A stretch of DNA of 64,000 nucleotides from Aureococcus anophagefferens (taxonomy: Eukaryota > Sar > Pelagophyceae > Pelagomonadales > Pelagomonadaceae), in contig NW_008705581.1 in NCBI RefSeq assembly GCF_000186865.1, positions 627,471-691,470 on the forward strand, written 5' to 3'. How positions within the stretch are numbered: the stretch's first letter is position 1; each line of letters begins with the position of its first letter. The position numbers were made by a program, and so were the translations under genes. This document shows, piece by piece, positions 2,617-36,200 of the stretch. The notes below the pieces were generated by a model. The model was not told where the DNA came from. It did not search any database and saw only the letters and a program-made list of their open reading frames with translations.

Positions 2617-5427
2617 ATGGCGCGGGCCATGACCGACGAGGAGGCGGCCCTCGCCTGCCCGCTCGAGTCCCACGCCGACGCCCTCGTCCCCGTCCCCGTC
2701 GACGGGCACGTCGCCGAGCAGCGGCGGCGGCGGCGGAGCCGCATCCGGTCGCTCAGCGACATGCCGCAGCTCTTCGAGGACGAGGCGTCGGACGCGCCGG
2801 CGCCCGCGCCGCTCCGGCCCACGGAGGCGCAGCGCGCCGACGCGCGGCACCGGAGCCGGCGGTCGTTCAACGACTTCGAGGCCATGCGCGGCGGCTTCGA
2901 CGCGCCCCGCCCCCGGTCCCAGAGCCGTTTAGGCGAGCAGGAGCTCGGCACGGCGGAGCTGTCCCAGTGCGAGGCGACGCTGCGGGAGCTCGCGGCGCCC
3001 GCGGACGCGGGCGCCGCGGCGGGCTTCGCCGCGACGATCAGCCACCTCCGCGCCTACGTCGTCGGCGCGCAGCTCGGCGGCGCCGCGACGCTCCGGTCCC
3101 TCCTCGAGCGCATCACGGGCTTCGCCAAGGACTTCACGTCCTGCGACGCGGCGACGCTCTACCTCGCGGACGACCGCGACGAGACGGCGCTCGTTATGCG
3201 CATGTCGACGAACTGGGCAGGAAAAGGGTGATTCAACGTCGCTTCAACGTGAGTGTTCCGCGCGCGCGCGTTCCGGGGAAAGCATCCACGCTTCGAGGGG
3301 GCTCCGAGAGATGATCGCTCGTCCAAAAATTAGCCGAAACGAGCGGAAAACGACCGAGATATGAGCCTCCAAAGTTGGAAATTTCGCACTCTTTTCCTGC
3401 CCAGGTCGACGAATTGGGACGCGCGGAACGCGGCCAAGGCCATCCGCATCCGCGCGGGCCAGGGCCTCGCGGGCATGACCATGATGGAGCAGCGGCCCGC
3501 GCGCCTCGACGACGCCTACGAGTCCAAGTACTTCCAGGCGCGCTACGACCGCGAGTCGGGCTACGTGACCCGCTCCGTGCTCTGCGTGCCGCTTTTAATC
3601 CGCCGCGACGGCGCCGCGCCCTTCCTGCTCGGCGTGCTGCAGTGCCTCAACAAGCTCGCCCCGGCCGCCGAGGAGCCGCTCGGCGACAGCATGAACTTCG
3701 ACGAGTCGGAGGCGCCGCGCGAGGTGCTCATCGTCCGCGACGGCAAGAACGGCGCGAGCCGCGACATCGCCGTGACGCCCTTCACGGCCGACGACGAGGC
3801 CGGCCTCTGCGGCGTCGCCGCGGCGGCGACGGGCGTCATCGAGAAGGTGCGGGCCCTGGACAAGGCGCTCCGCGCGTCGCAGCTCGCGAACGCGCGGCGG
3901 CCGTCGCAGCCTGTGTGCAAATCAAATCTTCAACCCGACTTCAATGTGCGCGTAATCGAACAGTTTTGACACAAACACTTCCGCTGCGCTTCGAGAACTC
4001 GCTGAGAGCAATCGATCCGTCCAAAAATCAGCCGAATCGACTTCGATTTGACCGAGATAGAGAGGTTTGAAGTTTTGCTGGACGCGTCCATTCCACTGGT
4101 TGATTTGCACACAGGTCGCAGCGCGCGCTCGAGCTCAGCGCGCTCGCGAGCTCGAGCCTGCTGAGCGACATCAACGACACCTACGCCGTGAAGATGGACG
4201 TCGCGACGTCCTCGGACGCCGCGGCGGAGCCGGGCGAGGCCGCCGCGACGCGGCGCCGGTCCAAGGGCGCGTCCTTCGACTCGCCGCGCGCCGCGCGGCT
4301 CTCGTTCGACGACCTCGCGACGATCGACGCCGCGGCGCCGCGGTCGCCCCGCGGCGGCGCCGACGACGGCGGCGCGCCGCGCCTCGCGTCCATGGGGTCG
4401 CCGGTCATCGGCCTCGAGGTGTCCGTGAAGAAGCGGCGGAGTGGCACGGTCCGCGACGACGAGGGCGGCGAGTCGCTCGCGGGGTCGCTCGCGGGCTCCC
4501 TCGCCTCGGAGGGCGACGGCCGCCAAACGGACGACAAGCCCCGCGTCGAGAACGACCCGGCCATGGTCGTCACGAGCCCCATCGTCACGCCGCCGCCGGA
4601 GCCCGCGCGCGCGGCGACCGCGAGCCCGCCGCCCGCGCCGCGCTGTGTGGAAACCAAATCTTCAACCCGACTTCAATGTGAGCGTATTCGAATGGTTTGA
4701 CACAAGCTCTTCGGCTGGGCTTCGAGAACTCGACGAGAGCCATCGATCCGTCCAAAAATCAGCCGAATCGACTTCGATGGGACCGAGCTAGAGAATTCTC
4801 AAGTTTGGTCAGGACCACCCAAACCAGCGGTTGGTTTCCACACAGGCGCCGCGGACGCTGGCCCTCAAGCTGCCCCTCGCGGAGTCGGCGGCGGCGCCGG
4901 CGGACGCCAAGGGCGCCGCGCGGGGCCGGAGCCTGCAGCCGAACCCCGTGGCGCCGACGTCGCCGAACAAGCGCGAGCGGCCGAGCCCGCGCGAGGCGCG
5001 CGGCCGCCGGGCCGGGGGCGCCGGCGCCGCGCGCGGCGTCTTCGGGCCCAACGGCATCCCGCGGTCCGCGCGCCTGACGCCCGGCGTGCCCCTGGGCTCC
5101 AACGGCTCCAACGGCGTCGACCTCGTGTCCGCGAACTCGTCGAGCGCCGCGCCCGTCGTCGCGAACGACTCCAAGGCGCGGCTCTCGCTGCACCCGGCGC
5201 CGCGCGTCAACACGATGAAGGAGCTCGAGGCCGCGGACTTTGGCCTGCCGAGCCCGAAGCGGCCGCCGCGGCCGCTGAACGTGCCCGAGCTCGGCAAGCC
5301 CACGAACCGCGCGGCGCTCTCCAAGGCCGCGCGCGCGGACCGCGTCGCCACGTGGACGCCCGTCATCGTCAACCCGGGCGTCCACGCCAAGGACAAGAAC
5401 CAGTTCGTCCCGGCGAACCAGCGATAG
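2617..5427 (+). CDS. GAF-domain protein with three introner introns
   Basis: Proposed exons are 2617-3203, 3405-3902, 4115-4634 and 4846-5427, which join in frame to 728 aa. The GAF domain spans exons 1 and 2 (about residues 150-340). It begins near LLERITGFAKDFTSCDAATLY, runs through RAGQGLAGMTM and ends near VLCVPLLIRR and LGVLQCLNK. GAF domains bind small ligands such as cyclic nucleotides; the ligand here is unknown. The N-terminal 140 residues and everything after exon 2 are low-complexity (Ala, Ser, Pro, Arg), probably disordered. No catalytic partner (cyclase, phosphodiesterase, kinase) is visible. All three introns are introners, two with GT-AG and one with GC-AG ends. Each removal restores the GAF or linker reading frame at the duplicated 8-mer. 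Confidence 0.75.
3213..3404 (+). mobile_element. Introner 1 (family 1), in GAF gene intron 1
   Basis: A 192-bp element with inverted ends CTGGGCAGGAAAAG and CTTTTCCTGCCCAG. It is flanked by GTCGACGAA at 3204-3212 and 3405-3413 (an 8-bp duplication plus one matching base). The intron is 3204-3404: the donor GT is the first two bases of the left duplication copy and the acceptor is the element's terminal CAG. Splicing rejoins the codons as MRM-STNWDAR. Oriented like introner 4 (22251). Confidence 0.93.
3911..4114 (+). mobile_element. Introner 2 (family 2), in GAF gene intron 2
   Basis: A 204-bp element with perfect inverted ends CTGTGTGCAAATCAA and TTGATTTGCACACAG. The flanking duplication GTCGCAGC is perfect (3903-3910 and 4115-4122). 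The intron is 3903-4114 with GT donor from the duplication and AG acceptor from the element. The spliced frame reads RRPSQRALEL. It shares the internal core TCCAAAAATCAGCCGAA with the other introners. Confidence 0.95.
4643..4845 (+). mobile_element. Introner 3 (family 2), in GAF gene intron 3
   Basis: A 203-bp element with perfect inverted ends CTGTGTGGAAACCAA and TTGGTTTCCACACAG. The duplication GCGCCGCG is perfect (4635-4642 and 4846-4853). Removing 4635-4845 restores the frame (PPPAPRTLAL), which makes this a GC-AG intron. A GT at element position 5 (CTGT|GTGG) is an alternative donor that would keep the frame and add four codons. It is close in sequence to the copy at 27216. Confidence 0.93.
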
Positions 5428-5608
5428 TGGGGTCCTCTTTTTAGCGGCCCGGGCGGCAGGGGGCGGACCCTGCTTGTTTCCCTCAACTTGAATTCAAGCG
5501 AGCTCGAAGTCGGGAAGGCTGAGCCTGGGCCGGGCTGCCCGCCATAGCGCCCGCGGGCTCACCGCGCCCGGTACCGCTGCAGCGCGCGCGGCATCGCATC
5601 GCCGGCGC

Positions 5609-6644
5609 ATGCGGGCCGCCGTCGCGGCGTGCCTGCTCGCGCGCGCCGGTGCGCACGTGGGCTACGGCCACCCCTTCCAGAAGCGCACGAACCTGAGCGT
5701 CTGGTGGTTGCACTTCCCCAAGACGGGCACGTCGCTGTCGAGGACCGTCGACGAGTACCCCGTCTGCTGCGGCCGCTTCGTCGAGAACCACCAGCCCCTA
5801 ACCCGCGGCGCGCGACGGCGACCAGCTCAGCTCCGTCGTCGCGCTCTTCCGGCCGCCCGCGCAGCGGCTCCTGTCGATGCACTACTGGCTCGTCAAGAAG
5901 GCGGGCCGCTGCTGTTCGACGGACTGGGGCTGGCCGCCGGCCCAGGAGGCGGCGACGAAGCGCCTCGTGGCCGCGGGCGCGCCGCCGGCCGAGACCGTCG
6001 CCGCGTTCGGAGGATGCGCGACGGCGATGGTCCTGGGGCGCAAGTGCATGGTCCGGGACCGCGCCTTCGAGGCGGCCGACGTCGACGAGGCTATTGCTCG
6101 TGTGGCTCAGTTCAAGGTCGTGGGGTTGACGGAGGAGTGGCGGCTGAGCGTGTGCCTGCTGAACGCGGTCCAGACGGGCGCGAAATTCGTGACGCCCGCG
6201 CAGATGGCCGACGTCAACCCGACGGCAGGAACCAACGCGACGATCTACAACACGACCGAGCTCGGGGCGGCCTACGCCGACGCGGACGCCCGGCTCTACG
6301 CGTTCGCGGAGCGGCGCTTCCGCCGCGACCTCGACCGCTTCGACGTGCGGCCCGACTCGTGCGCCGACGTCTCCGACGACGAGGGCGCGCGCATCCTCGA
6401 CGCCTTCGCGCTGCGGCGCGACCCGGCGGGCATGGGCCTGCATCGGCTGGCCGCCGTCGACCGCGCGCTCCGGCGCCCGAGCCGGCGCGACCCGGTCGAC
6501 GCGGCCGCCGTCGCGCGGCTCGCGGCCCGGCAGGAGGCCCTCGAGGCCGCCCTCGGCTGCGCGCCGCTCCCGCCGCCCCGAGAACGCGGCCACCGGCGGC
6601 GCCTCCGCGGTGACGCGAGGGTCTGCGCGGCTAAGACATCGTGA
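5609..6644 (+). CDS. Sulfotransferase-like secreted/Golgi protein, reading frame broken near 5800
   Basis: The N-terminus MRAAVAACLLARAGAHVG looks like a signal peptide. Around residues 35-43, HFPKTGTSLSR matches the 5'-phosphosulfate-binding loop (PKTGxS) of PAPS-dependent sulfotransferases. The frame then shifts by one base between about 5797 and 5817. It continues as DGDQLSSVVALFRPPAQRLL and on to the stop at 6642-6644. FRPPAQRLLSMHYW resembles the downstream R-x-P-x-x-R region seen in the gene at 18421. The shift is too small for an ordinary intron, so it is either a one-base assembly error or a real inactivating indel. The acceptor substrate is unknown. The family is assigned from the P-loop-like motif and layout only. 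Confidence 0.5.
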
Positions 6645-14867: not shown

Positions 14868-14939
14868 TGCTGGGCTTTGGATGGCTGCCCTTTCGGGGTA
14901 ACCAGTGGCTCTTGAAGTAATTACTATTGTAAGCGCGCA

Positions 14940-16058
14940 ATGGACACCGAAACTGCGGCGCCCGACCCGGCGCTCGATGCCGCCGCAGCGCCGGCCGACG
15001 CCGCCGACGCACCGGACGCCGCGGACGCACCGGACGCGTCGGACGCATCGGACGCATCGGACGCGCCGACAGCCGACGCACCCGACGCCGCCGACGCACC
15101 CGACGCCGCCGACGCGCCCGCCGATGCACCGGACGCGGCGGACGCGTCGGACGCGTCGGACGCGGGCGGCTGGGTCGTCGCCGGCGGCCGCGGCGCCTTG
15201 GTGCGCGCCTCCGCCGCCGCGGACTCGGCGCGCGTCGGCGTGCTGCCGCCGGAGACGCGCTGCGTCGCCGAGGACGCCGCGGCCGGCGACGGCGGCAAGG
15301 TCCGCGTGCGGCTCTCGTCGCCGCTCGCGGGCTGGGTGAGCCTGAAGCTCCTGCGGTGCGCGGCGCCGCCGGCGGCGCCCGCGCGGACCGTCGACAGCGC
15401 GCTCGTCACCCTCGACTGGTTCGGCAAGGACTACAGCGGCCGCTTCGCGTCCGCGAAGAGGAACGCGCTGCCCAAGAAAACGAAGATCTACGCCGTCGGC
15501 TTCGCCCAGGACTACGACGCGGGCGTTACGGCGGAGCTCGGCGAGGACGGCTGGCGCGCCATGACCTTCCCGGCGCCCTACCTGGCGCCGACGAACTGGC
15601 GCGAGTTGCCCGGCCGCGTCGGCGAGCTCGTATCGCTGAGCGACGACCACACGACGGTGCTCGCGGGCGGCGCGGACTGGGAAATAGCCGTCCACCCGGC
15701 GGCTTTAGTCGCGCGCGCGGGCCCCAGCGGGCCGGCCTTCGGGTCCTACGACGACGCGGACGGCAAGCGGACGCCGGCGCAGAAGCGCGCGGCGGACGAG
15801 AAGGCGTTCCCGTCGTCCTGCGGCTCCTGCGGCTCCTCCGACGTGACGCGCGTCCTCTTCGCCGCCATCTGCAGCCAGCACAGCTCCTACTCCATGAGCC
15901 ACTACCAGTGGGTCGTCGAGTACGAGGTCCACTGCCTCACGTGCGAGCTCGCGGGCCGCCGGCCGTACACGACGCGGACGAACCACACGTCCCACGCCAT
16001 GCCCGCGGCCCAGGGCTACATCGCGCGCGAGGCCGAGGTGCGGGGCGAGGCCCGGTAA
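14940..16058 (+). CDS. Protein with DAPDAA-type repeats and an SH3b-like segment, function unknown
   Basis: 372 aa. Residues about 5-75 are almost entirely Asp/Ala/Pro/Ser triplets (APDAADAPDASDASDAS type). A short beta-rich segment follows (VRASAAADSARVGVLPPETR, GWVSLKLL) that resembles a bacterial-type SH3b fold. The C-terminal half has cysteine pairs (CGSCGSSDV and CLTCELAG) that could bind zinc. I recognise no family. The start codon lies 72 bp from the divergently transcribed BAR-SH3 gene, so the two probably share a promoter region. Confidence 0.6.
   Translation: MDTETAAPDPALDAAAAPADAADAPDAADAPDASDASDASDAPTADAPDAADAPDAADAPADAPDAADASDASDAGGWVVAGGRGALVRASAAADSARVGVLPPETRCVAEDAAAGDGGKVRVRLSSPLAGWVSLKLLRCAAPPAAPARTVDSALVTLDWFGKDYSGRFASAKRNALPKKTKIYAVGFAQDYDAGVTAELGEDGWRAMTFPAPYLAPTNWRELPGRVGELVSLSDDHTTVLAGGADWEIAVHPAALVARAGPSGPAFGSYDDADGKRTPAQKRAADEKAFPSSCGSCGSSDVTRVLFAAICSQHSSYSMSHYQWVVEYEVHCLTCELAGRRPYTTRTNHTSHAMPAAQGYIAREAEVRGEAR
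14985..15170 (+). repeat. In-frame GACGCX minisatellite coding Asp-Ala repeats
   Basis: Imperfect tandem units of 6-15 bp built on GACGCACCGGACGCC and GACGCGTCGGACGCG encode the N-terminal Asp-Ala/Ser/Pro tract of the gene at 14940. All units keep the reading frame, so copy number can vary without breaking the gene. Confidence 0.8.
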
Positions 16059-18417: not shown

Positions 18418-18420
18418 CGC

Positions 18421-20505: not shown

Positions 20506-23500
20506 ATGGCGTACCAGAAGAAGCTCAAGCTCGAGGTGCGGCGCGAGCTCATCGAGGAGGAGCCGTCGAAGGAGCCGACGCTCCAGGAGCAGTTGCTGAG
20601 CCACTGCGTGAAGATCAACGGGTCCTGGCGCTACCAGGTGGACGTGAAGCAGACGGGCGAGGCCTTCGACAAGAAGAAGAAGCAGAAGAGGAAGAAGAAG
20701 CGCGGCGGCGGCCCGGACCGCGGCGCGATCCGCGAGGAGCTCGAGGCCGCGGGCGCGGACGACAAGTTCCTGGGCCAGGCGCTGAAGAAGAAGCGGCGGA
20801 AGAAGGACGCGGGCAAGAGCGCCGTCGATCTGCTCGTGGAGGCGTCCGAGGAGCTCAGCTACGATCCGGACAACGAGTCGGCGATGACCGAGGACTTGAG
20901 GCCCGGCGAGTCGCTCGTCGCCGCGCGGTTCCACCCGGACTACGCGCCGTTCATCCGCCTCGCGGCCGTGGGCGACCGATTCTTAAAGGAGGACCTCACG
21001 AAGATCATGGACAAGGAGGGCTACGACTCGGGCACGCTCTCGCGGCCCGGGAAGCTCGTCGTCCTCGAGGCGCGGCTCGTCAAGAAGCAGAAAAAGGCCC
21101 AGGAGGCCCAGGAGGAAGAGGAGACGCCCGCCGAGGCCGAGGCGGCGCGGAAGAAGATGGCCCAGGTCACGCACCGCGTCCCGCCGGCCGTCAAGCTCGA
21201 CCCGTCGCTGTCGCTGCAGGACAAGCAGATCCAGATGCTCCGGCTCGCGGACAAGGTCATCTGCTCCTACAAGAAGCTCGAGCACTTCATCGGCATCGAC
21301 AAGGTCGGGTCGCCGGACGTGGGCTACTCCATGGACATCGACGACGGCACGGTCGTCAAGGGCATCCGCGCGGTGCTCTTCGGCCAGGAACTTCCCGACG
21401 AGGACTCGAACGTCGTGTCGCTGCACACGGAGGAGGAGCTCATGGAGCTCGAGGCGGAGCGCCACGAGGAGAAGATGGCCCAGGGGGGGCACCGCGTCGA
21501 CTTTGTGAACGGGTCCAACACCTACAAGGTGGAGCGGGTGCTCTGCTACTTCCAGATGCTGGGATTTTTGTCGACGCTCGACCTGCCCTGGACGCCGCAG
21601 CTCCGCGACCAGCTGAACACGTTCCGCGTGTTCCTGGACGGCCACCTGCGGCCGCTGACGCACGCGCACAAGTTGTTGTATGAAAACACGTACTTTGGCC
21701 TGGACAAGCCGCTGTCGCTCGTCGATCTGTATTTTTATCGCGACGTCACGAAGTACTTCTACAGCATCGCGCTGAGCCTGATCCTGGTCGTGGCCCTGTT
21801 CTACCTCTGGGGCATCCACGACTACACGGACCCGAAGTTCACGAACCGCTGGCTCGACCTCCACATCGAGCACTGGTGGACGCGCGGCATCCCGCTGTCG
21901 ATCCTCTACGTCGCGGTCATCGGCGGCGTCCTGGTCGTCGGCCCGGCGGGGATCATGAAGTACTCCTACGGGCGGTCGGGCAGCGACAAGCAGGCGAACG
22001 CGATCCTCGTCTGCGGCGGCTCGCTCGCGGCGTATCTGTGGATCGCGTACGTCGTGCTCACGAGCTGCTGGCGCAAGTACTTCCGGTCCAAGGTCAAGCA
22101 CTCCAAGGCCTACGCGTCCATCGTGCTGCTGAAGGAGACGGTCAAGTCCAAGGTGACCTTCGTCTTCTGCGCGCTCTTCTACTGCTACATGCCCACGTGC
22201 CTCTACGTCGTCGGCGGCGTGATTCCCATCTATTCCATCGAGGTCTGGGACAGGGCAGGAAAGGGGTGATTCAAGTTCGCTTCAACTTGAGTGTTCCGTG
22301 CGCGCGCGTTCCGGAAAAAGCATCCACGCGTCGAGAGCGCTCCGAGGGATGATCGCTCGTCCCAAAATCAGCCGAAACGAGTGGAAAATGACCGAGATAG
22401 GAGCCTCCAAAGTTGGGAATTTCGCACCCTTTTCCTGCCCAGGTCTGGGAGCAGCACGGCGCCGACTCGCCTTCCGAGCCCCTGCCGTCGGCCTACCGCC
22501 ACGTGTCCTGCTACTGGCTGAGCTTCCCGCCGGCGATTCGGGAGCGGAAGATGAACCGCGCGCGGTCGGGGAGGCCGCTGCCGATGGGCTTCTCGGACTA
22601 CGAGCCCGTGCCGCACCGGCCCCACGACGCCATCCGGCGCGTGGAGTGCTTCGACGTGGGCGGGGTGCTCATGTTCACGAATAGCGTGCTCTGGTGCCTG
22701 CTCTACCTCGTGGGGTTCCCCGTGATGATCTACTATCTGATCGGCATCGCCCTGTGCCGGAAACAACCGCCGGTTCGGGACGTCCCGACCAAACTTTGAC
22801 ATTCTCGAGCTCGGTCACATCGAAGTCGTTTTGGCTGATTTTTGGACGAATCGAGTGTTCTCGTCGTGTTCTCGAAGCACGGCCGAAGAACTCGAAACCG
22901 TCGCATGCGCCCACATTGAAGTCGGGTTGCAGATTTGATTTCCACGCAGGCATCGCGGAGACGCAGCTCCACGCGTGCGAGTGGTGGTCCAACTACATGA
23001 CGGCCTGGCGGCGCTTCAATTTGGTGCTGCGCGAGTGCGAGGCCTGGGACCTGGGCATGATCTTCAGTCAGACCTTCGAGGTCTGGAAGGAGCAGGTCGT
23101 CGTCGACGCGAAGCAGGCGCGGCGCGACGCGAAGCGCGCGTTCGTCAGATTCTGGAAGCGCCAGGGCCGGCGCCTCTGCCGCCTGATCTGCTTCCCCTGC
23201 TTGTGTTTGCTCCGCCTCTGCCGGGGGTCCGAGGAGTCGAGGAGGCGCAAGCGCAAGTACCTGTCCATGGCCGAGGCGGGCGACGAGCCGCACCGGAAGG
23301 CGAGAGTGCTGGACGACCAGCCCCAGAACTTTTGGGCCCACGAGGAGTCCAAGGACGAGCAGTCCACGGGCAGCACGCTGACGTCGGGCTCCGCGGCGTC
23401 GCGGACCAAGCGCGGCAGCCGCGGGTCCAAGGGCGACGCGCCGAGGCGGAGTCGTCTGTCGCGGCTCAAGAAGGGTCTCGTCTTTTGCGTGACGCTGCGC

Positions 23501-26500
23501 TGGCTGCCGGGGTTGTGCCGGTGCCTCTGCCGCTGCCTGCTGACGTGCGGGAAATTCCTCTACGCCAAGTGCCGGGGCAAGGCCTACGGGCGGACCCACG
23601 TCGTCGCCGTCGACGCGGACGGCGAGGAGGTGAAGGACGACGGCGACGACGGCGCGGTGACGCTGGACCCGGATCTAGACGATGGCAAGCCGAAGATGCT
23701 GCTGGAGATTCCCGACGACGACTTCGTGATCCCGACGCGGGGCGTGCGCGGCTTCTGCTACCGGCTGCAGATGCACCCCGTCTTCGAGAACTTGATCACG
23801 CTCGCGGTATTGGTGTCGCTCACGCCGATCATCCCGTCGGTCAAGGCCGACATGCAGGACCTGCTCGGGCGCCACCCCATCGAGGGCGACGACGACGAGG
23901 CGGAGACGTCCTGCTTCCGCATGAACTGCATGTACTACGTCCTCATCGAGTGGATCTGCGGGCCCGTCTTCGTCCTCGAGGTCGTCGTGAAGATGACCGC
24001 GTTCCTCCCCAAGGACTACTTCAAGGACTGGTTCAACCGCCTCGACTTCTTTTTGATGCTGCTGTGGATCATGGACGTGGGCCTCGGCAGCGGCACGAAT
24101 CTGAGCTTCTTGAAGTCGCTCAAGGCGCTGAAATCGCTGAAATCGATGAAGGCGCTCAAGTCGCTCAAGACGCTCAAGGTGCTGCGGCTGCTCAAGTTCG
24201 GCAAGTACATCGACCCCCTCTTCCGCGCCTTCAAGCGCTGGCTCCTGCGGTGGATCGCCGACACTCGCCTCGCGTCCGAGGTCCACCTCCAGAAGGGCCA
24301 GGGCGCGCAGTCGGACTGGCGCGCGAAGCGGTCGCTGCCCGCGAAGCTCGAGATGCTCAAGAAGGGCTTCCAGCACGCGAAGCGCGAGTACGCCGTGAGC
24401 TTCGAGGAGTTCGAGCGCGACCACGAGCTCGAGATCACGAACTTCGAGGCCATCGTCGACACGGCCGCGCTCGGATACCTCATCGCGCAGTTCAAGCCGA
24501 ACGCGTCGATCTGGCGGCTCGTGCTCATCGCGGAGACGCTCATCTTTTGTATTTTGGTGACGTGGCTCAAGGCGACGCAGCAGCCCTGGGTCATCTGCGT
24601 CGCCGGGGCCCTCGTGCGCTTCGTCTTCGGGCTCTGGACGTTCCTGAAGCGGCCGTACATGTTCACGCGCGAGGGCCAGGTCGACTCGCTGACGCGGCAG
24701 ACGACGATCTTCCTGCTGGTGCTCGGCGCGCTGCTGGACCTCACGCGGGACCCGGGCTTCGGCATGGAGATGGAGGCGGACCAGGCGGAGAAGCTCCGCT
24801 ACTACGTCGACATCATCGGCGCGGCGCTGCTCTACGGGACGATCCTGCGCATCCTCTTCCTGCTGCGCGCGCACGAGATGGCCCACGACGCCGTCGTCGC
24901 CGCGATCCGCTACTGCGACGAGCAGGTGCTGACGCTCATCATCGGCCTCATCGACGTCAAGTGCTACGCGTTCGAGGACTGCAACCTCGGGCTCCAGGTG
25001 CTCCGCCAGTGGGACGTGCTCATCGACCGCCAGCAGGCGACGAAGTTGCGGGCCTGGCCGTCGCCGAACCCGTCGAACCTGCTGACGCTGTACCAGAAGG
25101 GCGTCCTCGTGAAGTGGGCCGCCGCGCGCGACCTGCGGATCTCGACGTTCCGGACGCCCACGGGCCAGTGCATCCTCCACAGCGCCATGCTCAAGGGCGA
25201 GCCGGAGATCGTCGCCTGGATCCTCTACCACCACCCGGAGCTGCTGACGGTCTGCGACGACCAGCGCGACTCGCCCGTCGTCATCGCGCTCAAGGAGCTC
25301 GCGTTCACTTTGTTAAAACACCAGAAGAAGCCGACGGAGGCGACGGCCTGGAAGCGCGCCAAGCTCGCGGAGATCCTGCTGAGCGACCAGATCCAGTGCT
25401 ACCGCGTGCCCTGGAGCCTGCCCCACTTCCGCGCGCTCGGCGACATCGCCGTGCCGCTCCTGGGAGAGCTCGTGCAGCAGCTCGCGCTGGCCCTCAACCT
25501 CCAGCCGCCGGCGGGCTTCGTGCGCATCTCCAAGTGGAGCCGCTACCCCGGCGACATCCCCGACTTTCTCGCCGAGTGCTACATCGCCTGCCGCGACGTC
25601 GTCGACACGCCGCGGTCCGAGCTCGGCGACGTCCAGGGCAGGCAAAGAGTGCGAAATTCCCAACTTCAAAGGCTCCTATCTCGGCCGTTTCCCACTCGTT
25701 TCGGCTGATTTCTGGACGAGCGATCATCTCTCGGAACGGCCTCGAAGCGTGGATTTTTTTTGGGGGCGCGCGCGCGCGAAACGCTCACGTTGAAGAGAAA
25801 TTGAATCTCTCTTTTCCTGCCCAGGCGACATCGGCGCGCGGACCTTCGAGGCCCTCACGGCGGCCCTCGAGATGCCCCAGACGACGATCACGATCCCGTC
25901 GAACTTCTTCCAGTCCTACCCCATCTACATCGTGCGCATCGACGCGCGCATGAACCGCCTCGACGGCAAGATGGGCCAGTTCGCCGCGCGCGCCATCGCC
26001 GCGAACAAGACGCTCACGTACCTGGACCTGCGCTACAACAACATCGACGACGACGGCGGCGTCGCTCTGGCCAAAGCGTTGAAGAAGAACGAGTCGCTGA
26101 CGCTCGTGTCCCTCGCGCAGAATCGGCTGGGCCCGAACGCGGGCGACGCGCTCGGGTCGATGATGCGGCGGAACATCACGATCCGCACGTTGAACTTGGC
26201 GGACAACCAGCTCGGCCCCTGCCTCTCCTACAGCAACGAGTACACGCGCGACTTCCTGCCGTCGTCGGGCCCGAAGATCTGCCACGCGCTCCGCGTCAAC
26301 GGCACGATCACCGCGCTCGACGTGTCGAACAACCGCCTCGGCGCCGACGCCGCGCAGGCGCTCGACCAGTCGTTCCGGCGGAACCCGCAGTCGGCGCTGC
26401 GGACCTTGGGCTTCGCGGGCAACGAGCTCCGCGCCGACGGCGGGAAGCACCTGGCCCACGCGCTGCGGAGCCGCGTGCAGCTCACGCACCTGGACGCGTC

Positions 26501-29009
26501 GCGGAATCGCTTTGGCGCGGGCGTCGGCGTCGCGTTCGCCGCGGCCCTCAAGAAGAACCACCACCTCGTGCACCTCGATCTGAAGGAGAACGGCCTGGGC
26601 ACGAAGAGCGGCCGCGGGTTGGCCCTGGCCCTCCAGGAGAACAAGAGCCTCGCGTCGCTGGATTTGGCCGCGAACGGCTTCGGCCCGGACGTGCTTCGGA
26701 GCTTCTCCGCGGCGCTTCTGAAGGCGCCGGGGCTCACCTATCTCAACCTCGCGCGCAACGACCTCGCGCTCAGCTCCCACGAGGGCGGCGAGCCGGAGAT
26801 GTGCGGCGGCATGCTCGGCACGGCGCTCCAGGGCAACAAGACGCTGACGGCGCTGGACCTCGGCGGCGTCAAATTCGACCCCGAGGAGCTCCTCAGCGCG
26901 TTGACGGGCTTCGCGCGGAACGCGGCCTTGCGGGACGTGTCCTTCGCGGGCCAGCCTTTTGATAATGCCAACGCGCTCAACCTGACGAACTGCCTCGAGC
27001 AGCACCGCCACCGCGAACGGCGGGTCAAGGGCCGGCCGAACACGTCCGGCGGCAGTCGCCCGAACACGGGCGCGTCGCGGCCGGGCACGGGCAAGAGCGG
27101 CAAGGGCGACCTGAAGGCGGGCGCGGACCACGGCCTGGGGCTGGTGGACGTCGTCCAGACGCCGGGGCTGCAGGCCTTCGACGTGTCCGGCTGCTCCGTG
27201 GGCCAGCGCGCGGGCCTGTGTGGAAACCAAATCTTCAACCCGACTTCAATGTGAGCGTATTCGAATGTTTTGACACAAGCTCTTTGGCCTGGCTTCGAGA
27301 ACTCGACGAGAGCAATCGATTCGTCCAAAAATCAGCCGAATCGACTTCGATGTGACCGAGCTAGAGAATTCTCAAGTTTGGTCAGGACCACCCAAACCTG
27401 TGGTTGGTTTCCACACAGGCGCGGGCCCCGTCTGCATCGCCGCGCTCGTCGCGCTGCCGCGGCTCACGGCCCTGCGCGTCGGCGGCAACGGCATCGGCGC
27501 GAAGCTCGGGGAGCGCGTCGCGGAGATCTTCACGGAGGGCTGCGAACTGGACACGCTCGACGTGTCGGCCAACAGTTTAGGCGAGACGGGCGGCCTCACG
27601 ATCGCGCGCGCGATGGAGCTCAACGTCACCCTGACGGACGTGGACATGAGCCGCAACGAGCTCAACGAGGAGGTCGGCTCCGCCGTCGCCGACGCGCTCA
27701 TCGAGCTCGTCGAGAGCGGCTTCGTCGCGCGGCCCGCGCACTGCGTCCGTTTGTGCCTGAGCCACAACCTCATCGGCACGACGGCGGCCTGCGACATCTT
27801 CACGGCGCTGCGGAACCCCGTGGCGCGCGACATCGACCTGTCGTTCTGCGGCATCGGCCCCGCGGCGGGCGAGGAGGTCGCGCGGTGCCTGCGACGGAGC
27901 ACGGTGCAGTGGAGCCGTTTAGATCTGGAGGGCAACGATCTGGGCAAGGACGGCGTCAACCCCATCATGTGGGCGCTGCGCCTCAACTGCACGCTGACGG
28001 AGCTGCTGCTGAGCAACAACGGCATCGGCGGCGACTTTGGCACGGACCGCGACCGCCGGGGCCACTACGGCAACTCGCTTCAAGGCGCCGTCGAGTACAA
28101 CTTCACGCTGAAGCGGTTGGACCTCGCGCACAACGACATCTCCCACGAGTGCGCGACGGGCCTGGCCTACGCCATGGTCGAGAACCCGTCGCTCGTGGCG
28201 CTCAACTTCGAGAAGAACCATCTCGACGCGACGGCCGCGGAGGCGCTGAGCGACCGGCTCCGGCGCGACGCGCAGATCCGTTATTTGAATTTACGGAGAA
28301 ACGATGTGTCCTGGCAGGGCGCGATCCGGCTGGCGAACGCGCTGGAGACGAACTTGGGAATTTTACACCTGGACCTCGGCTTCAACGGCGTCGGCTCGTG
28401 CGGGCCAGGGCAGCACAAGGGTGCGAAATTCCCAACTTCAAAGGCTCATATCTCGGCCGTTTTCCACTCGTTTCGGCTGATTTTTGGACGAGCGATCATC
28501 TCTCGGAACGGTCTCGAAGCGTGGATGCTTTTTCCGGAACGCGCGCGCGCGGAACACTCACGTTGAAGCGACGTTGAATCACTCTTGTGCTGCCCAGGTG
28601 CGGGCCCATCGCGGGCCGCGCGTTGGCGGACATGATCTGCAAGAACGCCATCCTGCGGCATTTAGATCTGGAGGGCAACGACATCGGGCCCGACGCCGGC
28701 GCGGCCATCGCCGCGGCGCTCATGCGGAACAACACGCTCCAGTTCATCAACATGATCAACAACCATTTGGAGAACGAGACGGGCGAGGCCTTCCTCAAGG
28801 CGCTCCGCGTCAACTCGGGCATCATGGAGTGCCACTTCTCCGTCGAGGAGATCGGCGAGGACCGCCACGGCGACATCCGGGCGCTCATGAAGAAGCGCGC
28901 GTCCCTCGACGACAACGCGAACCCGGACATCCCATGCGGCGGCGCGAACCCGACGATCCCGGGCGAGCACCTCCGCGAGGAGCTGCCCATGCGACCGCCG
29001 TCCTCCTAA
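20506..29009 (+). CDS. Giant polytopic protein: voltage-sensor-like unit fused to LRR array, five introner introns
   Basis: Exons 20506-22242, 22443-22743, 22950-25625, 25825-27207, 27419-28397 and 28598-29009 join to 7,488 nt, 2,495 aa, in frame throughout. Residues 1-400 are charged and soluble. Five hydrophobic helices follow (about 420-680). A voltage-sensor-like S1-S4 unit lies at about 950-1110: S3 is FNRLDFFLMLLWIMDVGL, and S4 has ten basic residues at every third position. After it come about four more TM helices and an ankyrin-like stretch (TPTGQCILHSAMLKGEPEIV). From about 1590 to 2460 there are ribonuclease-inhibitor-type LRRs (LTYLDLRYNNIDDDGGVALA). No selectivity filter is obvious. 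The role is inferred only: a voltage- or charge-responsive membrane protein with an LRR protein-contact platform. All five introns are introners. Confidence 0.75.
22251..22442 (+). mobile_element. Introner 4 (family 1), intron 1 of the LRR giant gene
   Basis: A 192-bp element with ends CAGGGCAGGAAAGGGG and CCCTTTTCCTGCCCAG. The duplication GTCTGGGA is perfect (22243-22250 and 22443-22450). The intron is 22243-22442, GT-AG, with join SIEVWEQHG. Same orientation as introner 1. Confidence 0.95.
22752..22949 (-). mobile_element. Introner 5 (family 2, reverse), intron 2 of the LRR giant gene
   Basis: A 198-bp element lying opposite to introners 2, 3 and 7: its 3' part reads as the reverse complement of their 5' part (CACATTGAAGTCGGGTTG). 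Ends are CTGTGCCGGAAACAA and TTGATTTCCACGCAG, so the inverted repeat has drifted. The duplication GCATCGCC/GCATCGCG matches 7 of 8. The intron is 22744-22949, GC-AG, with join YYLIGIAETQL. It probably belongs to the older insertions in this window. Confidence 0.9.
24107..24204 (+). repeat. 9-bp coding repeat forming a lysine-ladder S4 helix
   Basis: Imperfect 9-bp units of the form AAGTCGCTC / AAGGCGCTG / AAATCGCTG run about ten times and encode x-L-K / x-M-K triplets (LKSLKALKSLKSMKALKSL). The result is eight lysines, one arginine and one lysine at exact three-residue spacing at about residues 1067-1097 of the giant LRR protein. Confidence 0.8.
25634..25824 (-). mobile_element. Introner 6 (family 1, reverse), intron 3 of the LRR giant gene
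   Basis: A 191-bp element, reverse complement of introners 1 and 4 (starts with GCGAAATTCCCAACTTC). Ends are CAGGGCAGGCAAAGAG and CTCTTTTCCTGCCCAG. The duplication GCGACGTC/GCGACATC matches 7 of 8. The intron is 25626-25824, GC-AG, with join SELGDIGARTFE. Its T-run and GCGC run (25756-25779) differ from the other copies. Confidence 0.92.
27216..27418 (+). mobile_element. Introner 7 (family 2), intron 4 of the LRR giant gene
   Basis: A 203-bp element with perfect inverted ends CTGTGTGGAAACCAA and TTGGTTTCCACACAG. The duplication GCGCGGGC is perfect (27208-27215 and 27419-27426). The intron is 27208-27418, GC-AG, with join VGQRAGPVCI. It is nearly identical to introner 3 in the GAF gene, suggesting recent mobility of this subfamily. 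Confidence 0.95.
28406..28597 (-). mobile_element. Introner 8 (family 1b, reverse), intron 5 of the LRR giant gene
   Basis: A 192-bp element with ends CAGGGCAGCACAAGGG and CTCTTGTGCTGCCCAG, a variant of the family 1 end (GCAC replaces GGAA). The duplication GTGCGGGC is perfect (28398-28405 and 28598-28605). The intron is 28398-28597, GT-AG, with join FNGVGSCGPIAG. Body almost identical to introner 9 at 35590. Confidence 0.95.
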
Positions 29010-29867: not shown

Positions 29868-31802
29868 ATGCGCGAGCGGCCGACGAACATGTTCCGGTCG
29901 ACGTGGACGTCGCCGGAGACCTGCGCGGAACGTTCCAGCATCATCCAGCGCGCGGACATGGACCGGCGCATGATGCTCCACGCGCAGCGCCTCGCGTCCA
30001 TGCGGAGCACGGTCGACACGTCGCCGCCGGACTGCCTGTCGAGCGGGCTGCGGCGCAACGTGAAGCAGGAGCTGCTCCAGCAGGAGCGCCACGACGAGAT
30101 CATGCGGGACAACCGCACGCTCATCGAGCACCTGGGCCAGATCGGCGCGCGCGAGAACGGCCACCGCCGCGACGCGAGCTTCCGCTACCCCGTGTCGCAC
30201 AGCGCGGTCGTCCGGAAGCGCGCGGCGAAGCGCATCCACGCCGAGAATTTAGCGCTGATCCAGCGCATGGTCGCGACGAAGTCGTCCTACGTCAAGGAGG
30301 ATCTCGCGCCGAAGCTGCCCCTCCACGGCGGCCACGCGGACCTGTGGCGCACGTCGCGCATGACGCTCCGGTCGTCCGCGGCGCCGCCGTCGTCCGCGCG
30401 GTCCGCGCGGTCCGCCGGCGCGTCGCCGCGGGTCCGGCGCGCCGGCGCCAAAAGCCCCTCGGAGGCGTCGCCGCCGGGCGAGCGGCCCCGCGCCGCGTCC
30501 GCGGGCCCGCGCGCGCGGTTCTCCGCGCTCGACGCGGGCGGCTCGCTCGTCACCGACTCCATCGCGACGCCGTCCGTGCTCACGTCCGCGACGCCGCGGC
30601 CCCCGGCGCGGCCCCGGAGCTCGCCCGCCGGGGGCGGGTCGCTCTACGCCGAGTCCGGCGGCGACGCGTCCGCGGCGGGCGGCTCGTCCGCGGGCCGCGC
30701 GCGGTCCGCGACGTCGCGGCCCCGGAAGCCGCGCATCCTCGCCGTCGAGGGCCTGGCGAAGACGCTGGGCTCCGAGCTCGCCGAGAAGCCCATCCTGCTC
30801 CACCGCATCGGCCTCAAGTACGAGGGCGAGTACGCGCTGGCGTCCGTGCTGCGCGCGGCGCGGAACGCGCAGCTCCTCATCGTCACCTTCTACTTCCCCG
30901 AGAAGATCACGACCTACACGACGGCCCTGTCCGTCGACGCCGCGGCGGCCTGGCTGAAGATCGACGCCAAGGTGCTCCGCGCGACGGAGCTCCGCCTGTC
31001 CGCGCGCGTCTCGCGCGAGCAGGCCGAGGACACGCGCCGGTCCGACGCGTCGCGCGCGGCCAAGTACTGGGAGCAGCTCGTCTACTGCTTCAAGCTCGAG
31101 GCCAGGGCCGACGCGGCGCCCGAGGACGGCGGCGCGCCCGCGCTGGACCTCGCGCTCTGCCTCCCGCCGAAGCCCCTCGGCCGCCGCGGCTCCCTACTCG
31201 CGGAGCCCGCGCGGGCGCGGCTCAAGGAGCGGGCCCTGGAGACGCCGCCGGCGCCGGCGCCGGAGCTGAAGCTCGCGGAGAAGCGGCGCATGTCGGCCCA
31301 GGTCGCTGCGTCGGCGATCAGATCCGCGGAGCTCGCGCGCCTCGCGGCAGAGAGGCCGCCCAAGGAGGCCGCGGCGCCCGACGCGCCCCCGCCGGAGGCC
31401 GACGCGCCGCCCGCGGAGACGGCGCCGGCGGAGACGCAGGCGCCGCCCGCGGAGACGGCGCCGGCGGAGCCGGAGGCGCCGCCCGCGGAGACGGCGCCGG
31501 CGGAGCCGGAGGCGCCGCCCGCGGAGACGGCGCCGGCGGAGACTCCGTCGCCGCCCGCGGACGCGGACGCGGGCGACGCGGACCTCGACGCGGCCGCGGC
31601 CACGCTGCAAGCGCGCATGCGCGGCCGCCAGCAGCGCGCCGAGGCCCCGGAGGAGACGCAGGTGCCGATGAAATCGAAACACCACACGCGCGCCGAGTAC
31701 GACGATTCCGAGGAGGAGGGGATCCCGCACTCGCCGGAGCCCGTCGCGCGGACGCGGGAGACCCTCGAGCCGGCGCCGGAGCCGGCGCCGCCCGCGCCCT
31801 AG
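29868..31802 (+). CDS. CFAP97/hemingway-like ciliary protein with IQ-like motif
   Basis: 644 aa, single exon. The N-terminal 150 residues hold two related helical pieces, EIMRDNRTLIEHLGQIGARE and AAKRIHAENLALIQRMVATK. They resemble the R-I-x-x-E-N-x-x-L-L-x-R core of CFAP97/Hmw (KIAA1430) domains found in axonemal proteins. The middle (about 160-290) is Ser/Ala/Arg-rich. About 300-430 is a folded-looking segment (LLHRIGLKYEGEYALASVLR, LIVTFYFPEK) that I do not recognise. The tail has Pro/Ala/Glu repeats (residues about 505-560) and an IQ-like AATLQARMRGRQQR, a possible calmodulin site. With the PF20-like gene it suggests a flagellated stage or retained axonemal genes. Confidence 0.5.
   Translation: MRERPTNMFRSTWTSPETCAERSSIIQRADMDRRMMLHAQRLASMRSTVDTSPPDCLSSGLRRNVKQELLQQERHDEIMRDNRTLIEHLGQIGARENGHRRDASFRYPVSHSAVVRKRAAKRIHAENLALIQRMVATKSSYVKEDLAPKLPLHGGHADLWRTSRMTLRSSAAPPSSARSARSAGASPRVRRAGAKSPSEASPPGERPRAASAGPRARFSALDAGGSLVTDSIATPSVLTSATPRPPARPRSSPAGGGSLYAESGGDASAAGGSSAGRARSATSRPRKPRILAVEGLAKTLGSELAEKPILLHRIGLKYEGEYALASVLRAARNAQLLIVTFYFPEKITTYTTALSVDAAAAWLKIDAKVLRATELRLSARVSREQAEDTRRSDASRAAKYWEQLVYCFKLEARADAAPEDGGAPALDLALCLPPKPLGRRGSLLAEPARARLKERALETPPAPAPELKLAEKRRMSAQVAASAIRSAELARLAAERPPKEAAAPDAPPPEADAPPAETAPAETQAPPAETAPAEPEAPPAETAPAEPEAPPAETAPAETPSPPADADAGDADLDAAAATLQARMRGRQQRAEAPEETQVPMKSKHHTRAEYDDSEEEGIPHSPEPVARTRETLEPAPEPAPPAP
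31375..31560 (+). repeat. 27-bp-type coding repeat (APPAETAPAE)
   Basis: Near-perfect direct repeats of about 30 bp (GCGCCGCCCGCGGAGACGGC and following bases) occur four to five times in frame. They encode a Pro-Ala-Glu-Thr tract in the CFAP97-like protein. Confidence 0.8.
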
Positions 31803-31836
31803 GAGCCCCCGAGCACCGACTACGAGACGTAAGCGG

Positions 31837-32952
31837 TTACGGCACGCGGACGACGACCTTGCCCGTCGTCTTGCCCGACTGGAGGTGCTTCAGCGCCCCG
31901 GGAAGGTCGTCGAAGTGGAAGGCGGCGCCGTCGAGGCACGGCGGCCGGCCGCCGGCGCAGTCGAGGAGCTCCGCGAGGGCCGCCTCGAGCACGTCCTCGC
32001 GCTCCGTGAGCCAGATCAGGTTGAAGCCGAAGACCGCGCGGTTCGTGCTCGTGAGCTCGCCCGGGTCGACCATGGGCCGCCGGAGGTAGCTCGGCACGAG
32101 CGAGAGCCACTTGAGCGGGCCGCCGGCCGCGGCGCCGTAGCTGTGCGTCGCCCCGAAGTGGACGAGGCGGCCCATGGGCGCGAGGCGGTCGAGCGCCTCG
32201 GAGAACCAGGGCCCGCCGAGCGATTCCAACACGACGTCGAAGCGGGGCACGTGGCGCAGGTGGTCCCGGTACGCGCGGTCCGGCCGCGCCGGCCGCACGA
32301 GGACCTTGAAGCGGCCGTCGGCGACCTCCGCCGGGAACCGCGCGTGGATCGCGTCCTTCTTCGCGTCGCTCGAGACGACGCCGACGGCGTCGCAGCCGAG
32401 CGCGGCGCAGATCTCGAGCGAGAGCATGCCCACGCCGCCCGCCGCGCTGTGCACGAGGACGCGCGAGCCCGCCGTCGCGGCGCCGAGCTTCGCGAGGCCG
32501 TAGTAGGCCGTGAGGCCCTGGACGAGCAGCGCGGCGGCCTCCGCGTCCGTCCAGCCCGCGGGCGTCGGCCGCAGCAGTTTTCCGCGCTGCGTGACGGAGT
32601 CGGCGAAGGCGCCGAAGCGCGTGAAGCCGAAGACGCGGTCGCCGACGGCGTAGCCGCAAGCGGCGCCGGCCTCCTCGACGGTGCCCGCGAACTCGAGGCC
32701 CGCGACGGAGAGCGGCGGCTGCTCGCTGAACGCCGCGTAGAGGCCGAGGACGCTGAAGACGTCGGCGAAGTTGAGGCCGATGGCGCCGACGCGCACGCGC
32801 GCGCAGTCCGGCGCGAGCGCCTCCGCGATCTGGATCTCCTCGAGCTCCAAATTGTCGATGCTGCCGAGCTGGCGGCTCCGCCAGACGCGGCGCGTCTGCC
32901 GCAGGGCGCCGCACCAGACGACGACGGCGCTCGCGAGGAGGAGGGTCCGCAT
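31837..32952 (-). CDS. Quinone oxidoreductase-like medium-chain dehydrogenase (VAT1/zeta-crystallin type)
   Basis: 371 aa. An N-terminal hydrophobic stretch (MRTLLLASAVVVWCGALRQ) may be a signal or targeting peptide. The catalytic N-domain has GLNFADVFSVLGLYA and AGLEFAGTVEEAG. The NADPH-binding Rossmann motif is VLVHSAAGGVGMLSLEI (about residues 165-181). LESLGGPWFSEALDRLAPMG and the C-terminal GKTTGKVVVRVP are typical of the quinone oxidoreductase subgroup, which lacks the zinc ligands of alcohol dehydrogenases. The likely reaction is NADPH-dependent reduction of a quinone or enone. Start codons of this gene and of the gene at 33224 are 271 bp apart and divergent. Confidence 0.8.
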   Translation of the reverse strand: MRTLLLASAVVVWCGALRQTRRVWRSRQLGSIDNLELEEIQIAEALAPDCARVRVGAIGLNFADVFSVLGLYAAFSEQPPLSVAGLEFAGTVEEAGAACGYAVGDRVFGFTRFGAFADSVTQRGKLLRPTPAGWTDAEAAALLVQGLTAYYGLAKLGAATAGSRVLVHSAAGGVGMLSLEICAALGCDAVGVVSSDAKKDAIHARFPAEVADGRFKVLVRPARPDRAYRDHLRHVPRFDVVLESLGGPWFSEALDRLAPMGRLVHFGATHSYGAAAGGPLKWLSLVPSYLRRPMVDPGELTSTNRAVFGFNLIWLTEREDVLEAALAELLDCAGGRPPCLDGAAFHFDDLPGALKHLQSGKTTGKVVVRVP

Positions 32953-33223
32953 GGCTGCCGGACGGCGCGCGTTCTTGCAGGCGATGCTTGCCGCTGCCGC
33001 TGGACGGCGCGCGCCGCGGAGATCTTCTCCTTTTGCAGGCGCTGCTTGCTGGACGGCGCGCGACGCCGCCGGTGGATCTTCTCCACTCGACAGAGATCGA
33101 GCTCCACGGCATCATCGGAGATTGTTGCCGTCAACACGTTGTAATTGCCGCCCGAGCCCGCAGCCCGCTGGGCAGCGCCGGCACGCCCGCGGCGCCCCCG
33201 CGGCGCCGCGCTTTTCGCGGACC

Positions 33224-36200
33224 ATGGTCGTCCTCGGGCGCAAGGAGGAGGAGATCCTGGACAGCGCCTTCCTGAAGCGCATGGAGATCTCGAACCCAAC
33301 GGACTGGAGCCGCTACGCCGACGACCCCGACGGCATCATGAACCAGCGGAAGATCACGCGCGAGGAGCGGCGGCGCCAGTTCCAGGTGTCGCTCGCCGTC
33401 GGCGACCCGCGGCGCACGGCGCCGCGCCTCTTCCGGCCCCTCTTCGAGGAGAAAAAGGCCGCGGACATCGAGATCGACAGCTACGCGGACGGCGCGCGGA
33501 TCCGGTTCCTCCGGGCGACGGGCGGCCGCTTCTGGGACCGGCTCTACCTCGCGCTGCTCGGCTGGTTCTTGGTGCTGTTCCCGGCGGTCATGGAGAACGA
33601 CTTCGACCTGGGCTGCCGCGCGCGGTCGCCCGGCGACCCGTCGCACCTCGCGGACCGGTCCGGCGGCGCGTGCACGGTGCTCTGGCCGCCGCTCGTGCTC
33701 ATGACGCTCGCCGTGGCGCCGCCGGCGCTCGGGGCGCTCTTCATGCGCGTCTTCGCCTTCGACTTCCTCAAGAAGCAGCGCGGCGAGCGGCGCCACTGGT
33801 CCTTCTTCTTCGTACTGGCGCTCAAGGCCGCCGCGCAGCCCGCGACCGTGCCCGAGGAGTTCGTCGACTCGTTCCTCTACGCGACGGAGTACGCCAAGGC
33901 CTGCCTCCGGAAGCGCCTGGGGAAGAAGTTCGGCAAGGTCGCGCCCGCGGACGACGACGACGACGACGACGAGCCGAGCGACGACGAGGAAGACGTCGCC
34001 GAGGGCCCCGCGCCCGCGCCCGGCGGCGCGCCGTCGCCCAAGAAGGGCTTCCTCGCCGCGGCGCGCCTCATGGCCGCGGGCGCCAAGAGCAAGCGCAACG
34101 TGAAGAAGAAGCGCAAGGCCGTCGAGGAGGGCCCCGCGGAGGCCCTGGGCAAGCGCGCGAAGATCAAGGCGGCCGCGGCCGCCGCCGCGGGCCTGAAGGG
34201 AGACACGCAGGAGGACAGGGAGATCACGCAGAAGCGGGCCATGGACGCGACGAGCGCGCTCCACAAGCTCCACCACGAGGACGAGGCGCGCAAGGTCGTC
34301 TGGCGCTGCGTGTCGTGCGGCCGCGACAACCGCGAGCCCCTCTCGACGAAGCACCCGGAGTCCGTGGAGATGCTCGTGCACCGCATCCAGCGCAAGTCCG
34401 GCGGCGACGACCGCATCTGCGCGTCCTTCAAGACGGAGCGCTACGTGCCCACGTGCTCTACCTGCGGCACGCCGATGAACTACAAGATCCGGCCCTCGAA
34501 CGCGCACGCGTTCCACGACCCGTCCGGCGACGCCATCCACGCCTTCACGCTGCTCAACGCCGAGCGCGCGGCCCAGGACAAGCGCATCGAGGAGGAGAAG
34601 AAGCGCGAGAAGGACCGGCAGCGGCGCGCGGCGAAGAAGAAGAAGGGGGGCGCGGCGGACCACGAGCCGTCCGCGGGCGCCAAGGCCGTGACCAAGGCCA
34701 TCGGCGCCATCAAGATGGGCGCGGCGCGCAAGGAGCGCGTCGACTGGCAGCACCAGAAGGTCCAGTTCGACGCGCTGACGGGTTTGCGGCTCGACGACGC
34801 GTCCGTCGAGGAGGAGAAGGCGGAGCCCCTCGCGAAGCGGCTCCAGCGCGGCGCGCTGGTCATCGTGACGGACCCGGGCGCGGACGCCCTGGGCGGGCCG
34901 CGGCGCGACTCGCCGACGCGGACGCCCGGCGGGTCCCGGAAGCCGGGCACGCCGGGGACGCCGAAGACGCCGGGCACGCCGGGCACGCCCGGGTCGCTGG
35001 GCAGCGACCGCGACACGGTCGACGCCGCGGCCTACATCCGCGAGATGATGGCCGCGGAGGAGGCGGCGAAGAAGAAGAAGAATTTGGCGAACTGCTTCCG
35101 GAAGGTCAAAGAGGCCTACGTCAAAGTCCGCAAGTTCCTCCGGCGCAAGGACATGCACTACGGCGACGACAAGATGCTTTTTAATGATTGGTCCTTCGCG
35201 AAGAAGGTGAAGCAGTTCAAGCCCCAGCCGGACCGGCGCGCGCTCCGGCACCTCGAGCACTACGACGTCGGCGCCGAGGTCGAGTCCTTCGAGCACATGC
35301 CGACGTGGTACCCCGCCGTCGTCGTCAAGTACAACGCCAACGGGTCCTATGTTTTGCGCTTCGACAACGGCGAGGTCGCCGACGCCGTGGACCCCGCGCA
35401 CATCCGGTTCCGCGTCGCGCCGCCGATCTCCGGGCTCCAGCAGTTCGTCTGCGCGTCGCTGCTCGTCGTCTTCGCCGTGTGGCCCGCGTGGATTGCGCTC
35501 TACCTCGCGGAGCGGGGCTTCCGGGCCTCGGGGCCGGGCGTGCTCGTCGTGCCGTTGCTATTGTTCGCGCTGCTCATGATGGTCGCGATCAGGGCAGCAA
35601 AAGAGAGCGAAATTCCCAACTTCAAAGGCTCATATCTCGGTCGTTTTCCACTCGTTTCGGCTGACCTTTGGACGAGCGATCGTCTCTCGGAACGGTCTCG
35701 AAGCGTGGATGCTTTTTCCGGAACGCGCGCGGCACACTCACGTTGAAGCGACGTTGAATCACCCTTGTGCTGCCCAGGTCGCGATCGCGCTGCAGATGTT
35801 TTTGTTATTTTTGCGGGGCGGCCAGGAGGCGGGCTGCAACCTCTTCTGCAAGATCTCGTCGTTCTACATGCTGGCGCCGTTCTTATTGTTCGTCTTCGTC
35901 TGCGTCTGCCTCGCGGGCGACGAGGGCTTCGGCGCGCTCATCCCCTTGGCGCTGTTCCTCGGCGCGCTGGTCACGGTCGCGGCGACGGTGAAGCCCCTCT
36001 ACCGCTACCTCTTCACGGCGGCGACGATGCCCCTGCTCCTCTTCGCGGCGCTGCTGGCGGAGTGGTCGACGCAGGACGGCCGCGGCTACCTNNNNNNNNN
36101 NNNNNNNNNNNNNNNNNNNNNNNNNNNNNNNNNNNNNNNNNNNNNNNNNNNNNNNNNNNNNNNNNNNNNNNNNNNNNNNNNNNNNNNNNNNNNNNNNNNN

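Follow-up and report, generated by a model that had tools for sequence, protein, structure and literature searches.

The window analysed here, a stretch of 64 kb from Aureococcus anophagefferens, contains nine repeats (e1 to e9) with bodies of 188–204 bp, which lie within three genes and belong to two related families, A and B. The genes are listed below together with the predicted introns, each given with its left target copy; an element on the minus strand has its interior reversed relative to the gene.

2617-5427, plus strand: gene 1, encoding a GAF-domain protein of 728 aa after removal of three introners
3204-3404, plus strand: e1, family A, GT..CAG, acceptor at the right end of the interior
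3903-4114, plus strand: e2, family B, GT..CAG
4635-4845, plus strand: e3, family B, GC..CAG
20506-29009, plus strand: gene 2, encoding, once its five introners are removed, a 2495-aa ion-transport and leucine-rich-repeat protein
22243-22442, plus strand: e4, family A, GT..CAG, acceptor at the right end of the interior
22744-22949, minus strand: e5, family B, GC..CAG, repeats matching at 7 of 8 bases
25626-25824, minus strand: e6, family A, GC..CAG, acceptor at the left end of the interior, repeats matching at 7 of 8 bases
27208-27418, plus strand: e7, family B, GC..CAG
28398-28597, minus strand: e8, family A, GT..CAG, acceptor at the left end of the interior
33224-36485, plus strand: gene 3, with a provisional start, one introner (e9) and its stop at 36485
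35582-35777, minus strand: e9, family A, GT..CAG, acceptor at the left end of the interior, read from frame and anatomy only

The elements have terminal inverted repeats and are flanked by target duplications. The direct repeats are 8 bp long, with 9 matching bases in e1, e7, e8 and e9 and 7 of 8 in e5 and e6. All nine predicted introns run from the first base of the target repeat to the last base of the element, and thus comprise one target repeat of 8–9 bp plus the element, with a total length of 196–212 bp. Their 5′ dinucleotide is GT in e1, e2, e4, e8 and e9 and GC in e3, e5, e6 and e7, and CAG is found at the 3′ end of all nine. The nine junction pairs proposed in the initial annotation were therefore confirmed, as was its division by orientation, with the interiors of e1, e2, e3, e4 and e7 pointing one way and those of e5, e6, e8 and e9 the other. 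Profiles of families A and B matched the window at these nine places and nowhere else at E values up to 10, in agreement with the claim that the elements are confined to its coding regions.

Family A consists of e1, e4, e6, e8 and e9, with bodies of 188–193 bp and the ends CWGGGCAG, and family B of e2, e3, e5 and e7, with bodies of 198–204 bp and CTGTG at the intron 5′ end. The two are related, as they have a common internal core that is recognized across families by nhmmer with E values down to 7e-11. The window also contains repeats of other kinds. A tandem duplication at 48774-57178 has a unit of about 4.2 kb, matched pieces of 227–300 bases that are 97–100% identical, and no introner inside; a second one at 40546-43548 has a unit of about 2 kb and matched pieces that are 88–95% identical. 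Short-period repeats are present at 14937-15181 and 31328-31579, with steps of mostly 9 bases and of alternating 21 and 15 bases.

Exact removal of the element and one repeat keeps the reading frame at all nine sites, as had been stated before, and genes 1 and 2 then become single open proteins ending in a stop. The GAF match in the product of gene 1 (aa 159-279) spans the e1 junction. Gene 2 is open over 2495 aa once all five elements are removed, which upholds the earlier report of five insertions in one gene. The end of gene 3 had to be revised: there is no stop at 36091, where the gene had been thought to end, and the restored frame, open back to 32741, first stops at 36485.

The intron reading was then examined across the genome. 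Boundaries were called at each copy in the loci retrieved, after which coding potential was scored in six strand-and-phase states on each flank, using a codon model for which the three window genes, in their proposed spliced form, served as the training set. Independent evidence therefore comes only from the 40 copies outside the window. The same best strand and frame were found on both sides of exact removal in 46 of 48 distinct copies, and outside the window in 38 of 40 (binomial p 1.5e-27 at a chance expectation of 1/6, and 2.6e-16 at 1/3). The 48 copies include eight from the window, e3 having been dropped via duplicate handling at a locus edge; eight partial or poorly repeated hits and four edge hits were left out, and a further, uncounted set was passed over because it lay so close to a locus end that no repeat could be called. 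The non-agreeing copies are those at loci L007 and L015; in L015 a partial introner lies no more than about 60 bases from the locus edge. In all 38 agreeing copies the coding strand offers a usable acceptor; it is the only strand to do so in 32, and both strands do in six, all of family B.

The 3′ end is CAG in each of the 46 copies, and the 5′ start is GT in 23 and GC in 23. Across 65 target repeats GT was used 31 times and GC 34 times; as GT makes up 4.2% of the dinucleotides in the flanking coding DNA, and GC 15.5%, GT is favoured. The finding that all 65 target repeats start with GY is partly built in, since ambiguous boundaries were resolved in favour of GY..AG. A palindromic target preference is weakly suggested by RC at positions 7-8 in 24 of the 65 repeats (background 0.219, p 0.006).

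These data also bear on the alternative that the elements are gene-disrupting MITE insertions that are not spliced, in genes that are being lost. If retained, 44 of 46 copies would bring an in-frame stop and just one of 46 would be open and a multiple of three, which is in line with disruption. Such insertions would leave unexplained, however, the GY..CAG found at the frame-restoring boundary of the copies, the preserved frame and the usable acceptor on the coding strand in 38 of 40 copies outside the window, and the openness of gene 2 with its five insertions. We therefore regard disruption as very improbable and retain the reading of the elements as introns.

Related proteins cross five of the nine sites (e1, e4, e6, e7 and e8) without an insertion; for e2, e3, e5 and e9 the intron reading is based on frame and anatomy. 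The JGI protein P0001, encoded on a contig of 2494 bp, shares 360 of 364 residues with gene 1; it continues across the e1 site uninterrupted and then enters a B introner, unspliced, at the exact e2 base. Similarly, P0003, from a contig of 5287 bp, passes the e4 site without interruption before entering an allele of e5 unspliced. Because each contig still carries the next introner unspliced, genomic DNA lacking e1 or e4 is the likelier source, and P0001 and P0003 behave like empty-site alleles, although the same pattern could also come from a partly spliced transcript. P0004, another JGI protein, reads into e4 at the e4 site; relative to gene 2, it also lacks 16 residues upstream. P0007, which is 99.7% identical without gaps, crosses e7 and e8 exactly, on a contig that could be DNA or cDNA. 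More distant proteins cross the sites without a gap as well, namely P0008 (e6, e7 and e8), P0010 (e7 and e8) and P0012 (e6 and e7).

The e8 site is, in addition, crossed exactly by two NCBI models from A. anophagefferens, P0009 (JL722_12303) and P0013 (JL722_14482), which are 100% identical to gene 2 in their best local alignments, covering 44% and 22% of the query, respectively. In longer gapped alignments the identity of P0009 to gene 2 drops to 84% and 74%, where the model reads an introner as exon or drops an exon. A third A. anophagefferens model, P0011 (JL720_13271), is 60% identical to gene 2 as listed. At e6, P0009 and P0011 have a different boundary; P0009 takes e7 for exon, and P0011 enters introner-like residues at e8. 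We read these disagreements at e6, e7 and e8 as probable annotation errors.

The assembly, 49.05 Mb in 86 contigs, was searched for both families. A 24-base pattern of the A left end occurs 1,051 times, a pattern of the A right end 503 times and a 23-base pattern of the B left end 350 times, and the reversed control of each pattern gave no match. With 1,051 A and 350 B matches against none for the reversed controls, chance is excluded, and the end-pattern counts amount to numerous similar introns at non-homologous sites within a single genome. A density sample of twenty 10-kb stretches spread over contigs C1-C4 gave 27 hits, fragments included, in 183.5 kb of unmasked sequence, which corresponds to about 7,200 copies (4,500–9,900). 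Correcting the pattern counts for the fraction recovered in that sample (seven matches against 11 A hits, and five against 16 B hits) gave about 2,800. The two estimates disagree, and for the copy number, which the initial annotation had asked for, we state only an order of thousands genome-wide. Its central claim, that introner-type elements made the introns, is supported by anatomy, frame, copy number and alleles without insertions.

The explanation that had been offered for the two orientations was that inverted ends present CAG either way. This holds for family B. Its ends are CTG...CAG, so either strand ends in CAG, and near-identical B copies sit in opposite coding orientations. On a tree of 24 B interiors, coding orientation, as taken from the reading frame, changes eight times, compared with 8.2 in shuffles. 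The same observations are relevant to a spread as RNA, in which excised introns would reverse-splice and then be reverse transcribed, as has been proposed for fungal introner-like elements. The position of 38 of 40 copies outside the window in the coding frame and in the splice-competent direction would suit such a route. Spliced-RNA copies would, however, be expected to keep the orientation of the transcript, whereas B copies with near-identical interiors occur in both, and 8-bp target repeats lie outside the inverted ends. Among 44 A copies, the target repeats match at 8 of 8 bases in 37, at 7 in three and at 6 in four. Spread as RNA is in our opinion the least probable of the alternatives considered here, and insertion as DNA is the reading we adopt.

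For family A the explanation fails. The intron 5′ end is normally CAG, with CTG as its complement, so an inverted copy would offer no AG. Of 44 A copies, 23 have a usable acceptor at the right end of the interior, 20 at the left end, one (a partial copy) at neither and none at both. A usable acceptor is defined here by the end letters together with a fitting target base; by letters alone e1, with its CTG left end, would have two, and it is the only A copy whose end letters allow this. The same was seen in 31 A end pairs among the matches listed (23 A/A, one G/A, four T/C and three T/T), each of which has one acceptor and none two; left and right lists comprised the first 100 places each, and overlap only on contig C1 and part of C2. 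Both insertion orientations are thus seen for A and B together, and are freely mixed only in B.

The predicted acceptor polarity of A is a property of the lineage. On a tree of 22 A copies, frame-based orientation changes once, compared with 7.5 times in shuffles, none of 500 of which was as low; on a tree of 43 copies labelled by acceptor end there are three changes, compared with 14.5. The lineages are close, with mean identities of 0.92 and 0.91 within them and 0.90 between them, and a single clade for the left-acceptor copies was neither shown nor rejected (AU p 0.238, 43 copies). Since exactly one usable acceptor end was found in 43 of 44 A copies, the opposite orientations of e4 on the one hand and e6, e8 and e9 on the other would come from lineages that differ in which end has the acceptor. 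The ratio of 20 left to 23 right acceptors is biased because the A copies were partly chosen, L002-L008 for similarity to e1 and L045-L064 for an intact left end; of the 100 left-end places listed, 20 were fetched.

The acceptor end of A differs from the inverse of the free end at one base pair. This could have arisen if A once had two acceptor-capable ends, like B, and the AG at the intron 5′ end was lost after insertion, with nothing keeping it. The 5′ end of an intron is indeed unconstrained as an acceptor, and the CTG left end of e1 would fit such a history. Decay of this kind would not make coding orientation follow lineage on the A tree, as is observed, and the free base is mostly A rather than a mix with T. 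At base 2 of the A left end, the 100 places listed have T in 62, A in 31, G in four and C in three, so that A accounts for 31 of the 38 that are not T; genome-wide, A is found at this base in 336 of the 1,051 matches. In contrast, base 2 of the B left end is never A among the 100 places listed, and those ends that lost T read C or G. As free ends of A are mostly A and T-losing ends of B never are, the A at the free end would be an inherited state of the source rather than decay of T. We consider loss of the AG after insertion unlikely, although less so than either disruption or spread as RNA, and favour an acceptor polarity inherited from the source element.

The ends and repeats point to a possible affiliation of the source. 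hAT transposons are characterized by 8-bp target duplications and by termini of the form CAGNG...CNCTG. As in hAT MITEs, the target duplication found here is 8 bp, with some copies having 9 matching bases, and the free ends of A are mostly CAGGG. Unlike in hAT MITEs, the inward reading is CTG rather than CAG at the acceptor ends of A and, in most B copies, at both ends. A search of the genome with PF05699 gave four weak hAT-dimerisation matches. The loci inspected (L038-L042; C1:939001-946500, C13 and C6:236001-244000) have large open frames with weak hAT-dimerisation matches, and the copy on C1 has a 98.6% identical partner on C13. No introner-type end motifs were found in the four hAT-match loci, one of which has 436 masked bases. 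In the wider stretches around two of these matches (L041 and L042) neither the A nor the B profile matched at E values up to 1; searching these stretches for inverted ends with 8-bp repeats gave only GC-rich pairs of low specificity in L041 and none in L042.

Longer elements with introner ends were sought by patterns in which an end is followed by foreign sequence. Three A sites (reversed control, one) and one B site (control, none) were obtained. Retrieval of the A site on C1 and of the B site on C21 showed both to be introners whose inner sequence is altered, and the two other A sites were read, by the matched letters only, as introners with a one-base deletion. Patterns across the assembly and these four candidate sites thus gave no longer element with A or B ends. 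As no hAT gene or longer element with introner ends was found, the mobiliser and the assignment to hAT are unproven. In the density sample 16,462 of 200,000 bases (L017-L036) are masked as N, and a mobilising element could lie in such masked stretches.

Introners of A. anophagefferens have been described before. According to passages of PMC10228655, Huff et al. 2016 reported that introners co-opt splice sites and insert in either orientation, naming Micromonas and Aureococcus; PMC7789003 mentions canonical splicing motifs for the introners of A. anophagefferens, and PMC9481584 a characteristic length of about 210 bp. The inverted ends, target repeats, length of about 210 bp, co-opted sites and both orientations found here are the same as those of the introners of Huff et al. 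2016, as conveyed by passages of these three papers and of PMC9860276. Orientation, ends, repeats and length were thus already in print, and the novelty implied by the initial annotation does not hold: the nine elements are a re-description of introners known from A. anophagefferens. In contrast to the canonical motifs mentioned in PMC7789003, 23 of 46 tested copies start with GC.

Gozashti et al. 2022 (PMC9860276) describe introners of Symbiodinium microadriaticum that bring their own 3′ splice site and rely on the target repeat for the 5′ one. The splice-site class is the same as here, with a target repeat of 4 bp there and 8 bp here. The Aureococcus sp. example in that paper is unlike the elements described here, as it provides both splice sites itself and lengthens the transcript by 12 bp. 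The same authors searched for mobilising elements by their ends, and their method includes same- and opposite-orientation pairs. At the level of titles and abstract openings, the literature surveyed contained no report of end polarity or hAT-type ends for these introners, and we claim no priority for the polarity.

From these analyses we conclude, with a probability of roughly 0.93, that these Aureococcus introners are non-autonomous DNA transposons (MITEs) predicted to be spliced, in both directions in family B and in a direction fixed by lineage in family A, with a putative hAT-like ancestor with CAG...CTG ends. A transposase, presumably supplied from elsewhere, would insert the element, with a duplication of 8 coding base pairs. 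The upstream target copy would then supply the 5′ splice site through its first two bases, GT or GC as read along the gene. The CAG at the element's own end would serve as the 3′ splice site, behind a pyrimidine-rich stretch that would be the complement of the purine-rich inverted end. The upstream target copy and the element would be removed from the RNA as a spliceosomal intron, and because the 5′ site comes from the target copy and the 3′ CAG from the element, precise splicing would restore the original mRNA. With a potential AG acceptor at both ends, B could be spliced in either coding orientation. Family A would go back to an ancestor with hAT-like CAG...CTG ends that acquired its AG through a single base change at either terminus; with its acceptor at one inherited end, each lineage would be found in only one coding orientation.

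A further proposal, to which we give even odds, is that splicing polarity may be a heritable trait of a transposon lineage. A hAT-like MITE with symmetric CAG...CTG ends and a pyrimidine-rich inner strand would have stood a single base pair short of a 3′ splice site at either end, and would have gained AG at one end in A, with one to three switches between ends, and at both ends in B. Each A lineage would then survive in one coding orientation only, and B would be free to take either. If true, two stages of transposon adaptation to life as introns coexist in one genome.

Introners are among the most direct evidence for the bulk origin of new introns. What is added here is a comparison within one genome, between a two-way family and a sister family with inherited acceptor polarity. 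Single-base differences at the ends would account for the contrast between A and B, so that the way in which a transposon adapts to splicing can be tested one base at a time, and the states before and after insertion are represented by related insertion-free alleles. For A. anophagefferens itself, annotated proteins may contain introner-derived residues, as in P0009 at e7 and apparently in P0011 at e8.
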